NCBI GenBank assembly: GCA_937922155.1
Contig: CAKZVL010000043.1
Location: forward strand, 1 to 43,159
From: an uncultured Paracoccaceae bacterium
GTDB lineage: Bacteria; Pseudomonadota; Alphaproteobacteria; Rhodobacterales; Rhodobacteraceae
DNA: 43,159 nt
Direction: 5' to 3'
How positions within the stretch are numbered: position 1 is the stretch's first letter; every line of letters starts with the position of its first letter. Positions 5,570-30,051 of this stretch are shown in pieces. A program made the translations under genes and the position numbers. The notes under the pieces are model-generated. The model ran no database searches. It was not told the origin of the DNA and worked only from the letters and a program-made list of their open reading frames with translations.

Positions 5570-6196
5570 TCAGGCGGCAATCCGGGCGATTGATTTGCCA
5601 AAAGATCGGTTAAACCACGCCTCCGAAATCTCTGACGACAGACCTGCCCGGCGCAATACCTTTTGGCGGTCTTCATCGCGATAGGCCCAAAGGCCGACGC
5701 TGATTTTATCACGTCCCGCTCCAGCACTGCCAAGCACTTCGGGGGCGGCGCCGATCATATTGTAAATCCGGATCATACGCGCATCAAAGACGCCCAACAA
5801 ATGTGTCAAATGAAACGCGCGCATCAGCTCGCCCCCTGCCAGCATCAGCGCGCCTGCAACACGGGCGTCAGCACCGGGGGCAAGGCAAAATCGGGTACAT
5901 TCCCAGATGAGCGGGCTAGAAATTTGCGTATCCGCCAAATCGGCAAAATGATCATTGACCATCGTGCGCCCCGTGGTCGGCAAAAATCGCATGGATCCGC
6001 CATGGCTGCCATCCCGGTTTTCCCAAATGACATAAAGCGGGTTGAGGGCGTCATATTCATCCCGCTCCCAACCGCGATCATCGACCTCGACCTCCCACTT
6101 CAATCTGTCCTTGAATTGATACGCCCGGTCGCGGTGCATCGTATCTTGAAGTGTCGCAAGCTGGCCCAAGTCGTTGGCATAGATATAGCGTAACAT
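5570..6196 (-). CDS. luxI: Acyl-homoserine-lactone synthase (LuxI family)
   Basis: MLRYIYANDL...RDRAYQFKDRLKWEV...DEYDALNPLYVIWE...GGSMRFLPTTGRTMVNDHF; LuxI-family fold. Start set at the MLRYIY ATG (6196); the ORF track extends to 6238. Confidence 0.9.
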   Translation of the reverse strand: MLRYIYANDLGQLATLQDTMHRDRAYQFKDRLKWEVEVDDRGWERDEYDALNPLYVIWENRDGSHGGSMRFLPTTGRTMVNDHFADLADTQISSPLIWECTRFCLAPGADARVAGALMLAGGELMRAFHLTHLLGVFDARMIRIYNMIGAAPEVLGSAGAGRDKISVGLWAYRDEDRQKVLRRAGLSSEISEAWFNRSFGKSIARIAA

Positions 6197-6229
6197 GTTG
6201 ATCCCATCTGAATATCCGATGGGATCAAC
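6197..6229 (-). promoter_or_regulatory. 12-bp perfect stem-loop in the luxI leader
   Basis: Minus strand GTTGATCCCATC-GGATATTCA-GATGGGATCAAC then ATG (6196..6194) of luxI. Confidence 0.65.
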
Positions 6230-6295
6230 TTTGGTCATCTTGGTTAACGAGGTCTGATAGCACCGTGACGGTGGGTGTTGCGCCTTGCCCTGAGC

Positions 6296-28265: not shown

Positions 28266-28299
28266 TTTGTGATCACACATTTTCGCGTGTGATCACAAA
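28266..28299. promoter_or_regulatory. 34-bp perfect dyad made of two TGTGATCACA palindromes upstream of sucC
   Basis: TTTGTGATCACAC-attttcgc-GTGTGATCACAAA; palindrome centres 20 bp apart. Confidence 0.7.
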
Positions 28300-29985: not shown

Positions 29986-30016
29986 GCCGCGACCCACTCA
30001 ATAACCTAATTCATAA

Positions 30017-30051
30017 AAGCCGCCCGTTTGCATCAAACGGGGCGGCTTTTT
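30017..30051 (+). terminator. Rho-independent terminator after the small lipoprotein
   Basis: AAGCCGCCCGTTT-GCATC-AAACGGGGCGGCTTTTT (one bulged base). Confidence 0.85.

Follow-up and report, generated by a model that had tools for sequence, protein, structure and literature searches.

Transcripts that reach the IS10/Tn10 transposase gene from outside fold such that the transposase start is hidden, whereas the native transcript does not. In phage T4, read-through hairpins are described for gene e and also for soc, 49 and I-TevI (PMC3014915, PMC2988022). The late promoter of gene e lies within the DNA of the 5' arm of the hairpin, and translation of the long RNA is lower by a factor of about 100 (PMC3014915); the same arrangement has been shown for I-TevI (PMC2988022). 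In S. meliloti, RNase E and the sRNA RcsR1 both target the leader of the luxI-type gene sinI, with RcsR1 binding in the vicinity of the SD (PMC5977203, PMC7143759). The accounts of sinI in these two papers contain no SD hairpin that straddles a transcription start site. The Roseobacter luxRI arrangement known as topology B is described in a review as the order crotonyl-CoA reductase, luxR, luxI, helicase, and no leader hairpin was found there under the terms looked for (PMC3824088).

The 43,159-nucleotide stretch of DNA analysed here (hereafter, the window), from a marine bacterium, has the ccr-luxR-luxI-helicase gene order of topology B. The luxI gene, which encodes an acyl-homoserine-lactone synthase (PF00765), occupies 5570..6196 on the minus strand with an ATG at 6196, and is preceded by a co-directional luxR gene (PF03472 and PF00196; 6296..7156, minus strand) whose stop codon lies some 100 nt before luxI. 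The luxR-luxI interval of the window yielded no terminator-like site. Translation of luxI, to judge from its homologs, starts at 6196, because the relatives share this Met as the first aligned residue (MLRYIY/MIRYIY) and all have an SD 5-10 nt ahead of it, and 55 of the 183 contain an in-frame stop within the 42 nt by which a start at 6238 would extend the gene. The luxI ortholog of locus L003 (genome G002, same genus) contains an in-frame TAA in the middle of the gene, after ...MIGTAP, and might be a pseudogene or reflect a sequencing error.

Directly 5' of the luxI ATG (6196-6194, minus strand), there is a perfect 12-bp inverted repeat with a 9-nt loop (6197-6229), which consists of the 5' arm GTTGATCCCATC (6218..6229), the loop GGATATTCA (6209..6217) and the 3' arm GATGGGATCAAC (6197..6208), all on the minus strand; the outer part of the 5' arm lies upstream of the predicted luxI transcription start site. 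This repeat was first noticed in the initial annotation, and its length, loop and position next to the ATG are confirmed (minus strand 6229-6218 / 6208-6197); the span given at that time, 6194-6229, covers the repeat itself along with the start codon. The SD-like sequence GATGGGATC is part of the 3' arm, and its GGGA core is weak (-4.0 kcal/mol with the anti-SD). The predicted leader RNA forms the 12-bp stem with a fold energy of -20.8 kcal/mol, and opening of the SD costs 17.4 kcal/mol vs 6.2 in shuffled sequences, with none of the 200 shuffles as high, in agreement with the earlier suggestion that folding hides the SD-like stretch. Thus, a stable hairpin holds the SD within its 3' arm, the arrangement characteristic of gene e. 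The window contains only three perfect inverted repeats with arms of 10 bp or more and a loop of 3-20 nt, and the full dyad occurs once (expected 0). The Rfam scan of the window yielded tRNA only, with no match of the hairpin to a known riboswitch or leader family at the gathering score.

Relatives of luxI were found in 258 of the 397 genomes of the family, in addition to 79 loci of named genomes. With 100 further leaders added, 209 leaders were available, and 184 remained after those at least 80% alike were dropped. The luxR gene is co-directional and upstream of luxI in 179 of these 184. The mean cost of SD opening is 8.9 kcal/mol vs 5.4 in shuffles of the 5' part, and SD-sequestering structure is detected in 47% of the leaders at p<0.05 and in 91% at p<0.5, with p-values that ignore the shared ancestry of the leaders (no phylogenetic correction). 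The trend is present in the subset with one leader per genus (z=1.69; 124 leaders from distinct genera). Leaders of other genes from the same loci, used as a control (n=184), gave z=0.13, with 8.7% at p<0.05. The longest perfect stem overlapping the SD among the 184 leaders is that of the window, which ranks third highest in SD opening cost. The expectation that pairing is conserved in close relatives holds in part: pairing is kept in the nearest relatives of the window, but the arms are shorter and the structures weaker, mostly without individual significance (p=0.45 for L002, 0.50 for L033, 0.47 for L034 and 0.02 for L035). Taken across the leader comparisons, a hairpin that hides the SD precedes luxI in most of the relatives, and that of the window is evidently not a chance occurrence. 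In the five loci of the family set that have no luxR match upstream, the hairpin is not clearly missing (mean z 1.4), a sample too small to be informative.

The arms themselves vary by genus, with pairs such as CTACCC/GGGTAG, CCCTT/AAGGG and CCTCC/GGAGG, in addition to the GTTGATCCCATC/GATGGGATCAAC pair of the window, and complementarity is kept. This is the compensatory pattern that alignment of Rhodobacteraceae leaders had been proposed to reveal. Because loop lengths differ in an alignment of 15 leaders, a partner swap was used in place of a formal count of compensated pairs. When the SD part of a leader was joined to the 5' part from another species, the opening cost dropped from 8.9 to 5.8 kcal/mol (Wilcoxon 1.6e-24), and in a version of the test that does not depend on an energy model, stem length was 4.70 for native and 4.07 for swapped pairs (p=5e-8). 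The swap lowers both the opening cost and the stem length, which argues that the arms co-evolve beyond the common C-rich/G-rich motif. Mismatches are asymmetric as well: of 72 opposite a G of the SD arm, 42 have T as the partner, whereas of 32 opposite an A, only 7 have C (Fisher p=6e-4). Tolerance of G-U but not A-C is as expected for a structure formed by the sense-strand RNA and would not mark a DNA dyad.

With either TTAAC or the CGYRCG dyad as the anchor, alignment of the leaders reveals one shared promoter module: TTAACC lies 22 nt from the dyad, or a helical turn earlier, and a [T/A]A-nnn-T element, the predicted -10, lies at about 37 nt from the dyad, with a mild preference for A at the expected +1. 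TTAAC is found at -85 to -35 in 124 of the 184 leaders, against a background of approximately 3% per such stretch. The TTAACC(AT) sequence fits the CtrA half-site, for which the consensus TTAACCAT is quoted (PMC3692519). The conserved module suggests that CtrA acts directly at luxI throughout the family; work on D. shibae reports predicted CtrA sites at luxR2I2 only. The counterpart of the conserved dyad in the window, CACCGTCACGGTG, is a putative LuxR-type box (6261..6273, minus strand), followed on the same strand by TTAACC (6242..6247), a CtrA-type half-site by consensus match, and by the predicted -10 hexamer AAAGTT (6227..6232), which is placed by family spacing and fits nAnnnT weakly. 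The predicted luxI transcription start is the A of CCC-A-TCGG at 6220 (minus strand), located by hand from family spacing, 47 nt from the dyad center. The module, both in the window (6242-6273) and in the leaders of the family set, includes a 24-nt palindrome around CGYRCG with the CtrA half-site 22 nt on. In addition, CATC(G) recurs in these leaders at about -30 to -21 from the ATG, at or near the predicted start (CCCATCGG in the window), and may be an initiator. The TTAACC sequence was also considered as a -10 element and rejected, given that in the module profiles it is in the wrong register, with T at the -11 position.

Both the dyad and the -10 could be called in only 58 of the 184 leaders, which comprise the set for the start-site test. 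In these 58 leaders, 87% of the pairing partners of the SD lie upstream of the predicted +1. RNA beginning at the predicted +1 shows no structure in excess (z=-0.02), as opposed to RNA beginning 20 nt further up (z=1.74), and shifting the 5' end from -20 to +1 lowers the mean opening cost smoothly, from 8.5 to 2.5 kcal/mol. In the window, the corresponding values are 17.6 kcal/mol for the read-through RNA vs 2.4 for RNA from about A6220. Because the 5' arm and the predicted -10 and +1 region overlap, RNA that reads through from luxR is most likely the only RNA on which the hairpin forms, and this would make the hairpin a static insulator and not a switch released by a trans-acting factor. The initial annotation had regarded a transcription start inside the repeat as evidence against a role of the hairpin. 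By promoter prediction, the start probably is there, and this does not make the structure meaningless.

With luxR co-directional in 179 of the 184 leaders and no terminator found in the window, we therefore read the hairpin as a block to read-through; that it acts at luxI in the manner of the T4 gene e hairpin is, in our judgment, probable. On RNA initiated upstream, the hairpin would hide the luxI SD and thereby hinder translation. Transcription from the luxI promoter itself (dyad, CtrA-type TTAACC and TAnnnT -10) would begin near A6220, where the 5' arm has its inner end, so that the resulting mRNA would lack this arm, leaving the SD free for translation. LuxI synthesis would thus be tied to firing of the luxI promoter, and leakage from luxR transcription would be kept from starting the autoinduction loop. 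With positive feedback through LuxI, quorum sensing responds sensitively to leaky expression of the synthase, and the tandem luxR-luxI arrangement invites leakage by read-through. Several observations count against this reading: four of six luxI genes with a divergent luxR carry a significant hairpin; the promoter module with a -10 could be called in only 58 of the 184 leaders, with the window -10, AAAGTT, being weak; the pairing is weaker in the nearest relatives; and the five family loci with no luxR match upstream give no clear loss of the hairpin. Of the translational control originally proposed for the synthase, a layer at the RNA level that sequesters the SD, beyond LuxR-dependent transcription, is supported by the fold and by the co-evolution of the arms, but release by a trans-acting factor is not, with the 5' arm located at the predicted start.

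The chief rival explanation places the hairpin within the main luxI mRNA, which would start upstream of 6229 and always carry the hairpin, to be opened or stabilized by an sRNA, an RNase or a protein as a translational switch. A conserved, co-evolving hairpin is compatible with such a regulated leader, as are the hairpins of some divergent luxI genes and the precedent of sinI, but the overlap of the 5' arm with the predicted -10/+1, the lack of excess structure in RNA from +1 and the difficulty of opening a 12-bp stem of -20.8 kcal/mol render it rather unlikely. The arms and loop also appear too variable for a common trans-acting partner; specifically, a conserved sRNA partner is unlikely because both vary between species. 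Temperature control of luxI by an RNA thermometer, another of the mechanisms initially envisaged, would share with known thermometers the location of the SD in a stem. However, the perfect stem contains none of the weak internal pairs on which thermometers rely, and melting prediction does not bear out the idea: the mean unpaired probability of the SD is below 0.0001 at 20 C and 0.0003 at 42 C, that is, the SD is more than 99.9% paired at the higher temperature. We consider this reading extremely improbable.

A DNA operator, in which the dyad would be the binding site of a regulator, had likewise been raised, and a perfect palindrome within a promoter region is what such a site might look like. 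Nevertheless, the genome search for the dyad half-site detected no second dyad and only one further exact single half, so that other targets in the genome do not repeat the dyad; arm sequence and spacing differ between species, with only complementarity to the SD retained; and G-T but not A-C mismatches are tolerated. The upstream CGYRCG dyad is the likelier operator, and the hairpin is very unlikely to be one. Finally, the repeat could be a chance palindrome, or the coding sequence of a longer LuxI translated from 6238, where the reading frame is indeed open from an ATG. The enrichment of the hairpin across the 184 leaders speaks against the former, and the shared Met at 6196 and the in-frame stops in relatives against the latter, a possibility mentioned at the outset that finds no support here; either one seems exceedingly remote.

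As at T4 gene e and the other T4 genes, where the SD and/or AUG lies in the 3' arm, the proposed block at luxI would combine an SD in the 3' arm with a predicted proximal promoter in the DNA of the 5' arm, such that the long RNA would be blocked and the short one translated. The T4 case differs in being experimentally demonstrated temporal control in a phage, whereas the luxI hairpin belongs to a chromosomal quorum-sensing synthase, is found in many genera, and has start sites that are predicted only. The parallel with IS10/Tn10 is that RNA from outside would hide the start and the native RNA leave it free, but that system is a mobile element and not a signalling operon. With sinI, the locus would have in common that a luxI-type gene is controlled post-transcriptionally through its 5' leader, in sinI by an sRNA and RNase mechanism (PMC5977203, PMC7143759), and with topology B, it shares the gene order. 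The principle is known from phage T4; in the literature searched, with most subscription journals outside its scope, we found no earlier report of an SD hairpin at luxI, or of the use of the principle there in many genera with free sequence change, and no mapped start site for any Rhodobacteraceae luxI. If the reading holds, a leak-cutting RNA element would explain the clean off-state of tandem luxR-luxI operons, its effect would be invisible to transcript-level readouts of luxI (RNA-seq, qPCR), and a mechanism of phage genes would extend to chromosomal signalling.

Class- and phylum-level searches provided 111 luxI-type genes from other alphaproteobacteria and other proteobacteria, along with some luxI paralogues from the home family. 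The same hairpin trend is seen in tandem luxR-luxI pairs (z=2.01, 53% at p<0.05; n=74), which are mostly from Alphaproteobacteria, and is weaker for luxI without a nearby luxR (z=0.87; n=31) or with a divergent luxR (z=1.34; n=6); the difference between tandem pairs and all others is significant (p=1.8e-4). Whether a co-evolving hairpin across the luxI start site silences read-through in the tandem luxR-luxI pairs of Alphaproteobacteria as a whole, so that the signal would strictly need the LuxR/CtrA-gated promoter of luxI, appears to us evenly balanced. If it does, the autoinduction loop would contain a translational insulator that recurs in the form of unrelated sequences. Because divergent-luxR luxI genes carry hairpins, in some lineages the hairpin may be located in the main mRNA and be a regulated leader there. 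The divergent-luxR luxI genes with a significant SD hairpin, which luxR read-through does not explain, are those of L227, L236, L260 and L344.

Elsewhere in the window, a perfect 13-bp inverted repeat, TTTGTGATCACAC-N8-GTGTGATCACAAA, is located at 28266-28299; it lacks a T-tract and is operator-like. The GC-rich hairpin at 30015-30050, flanked by an A-tract 5' and a T-tract 3' (AAAAGCCGCCCGTTTG...CAAACGGGGCGGCTTTTT), is an intrinsic terminator.
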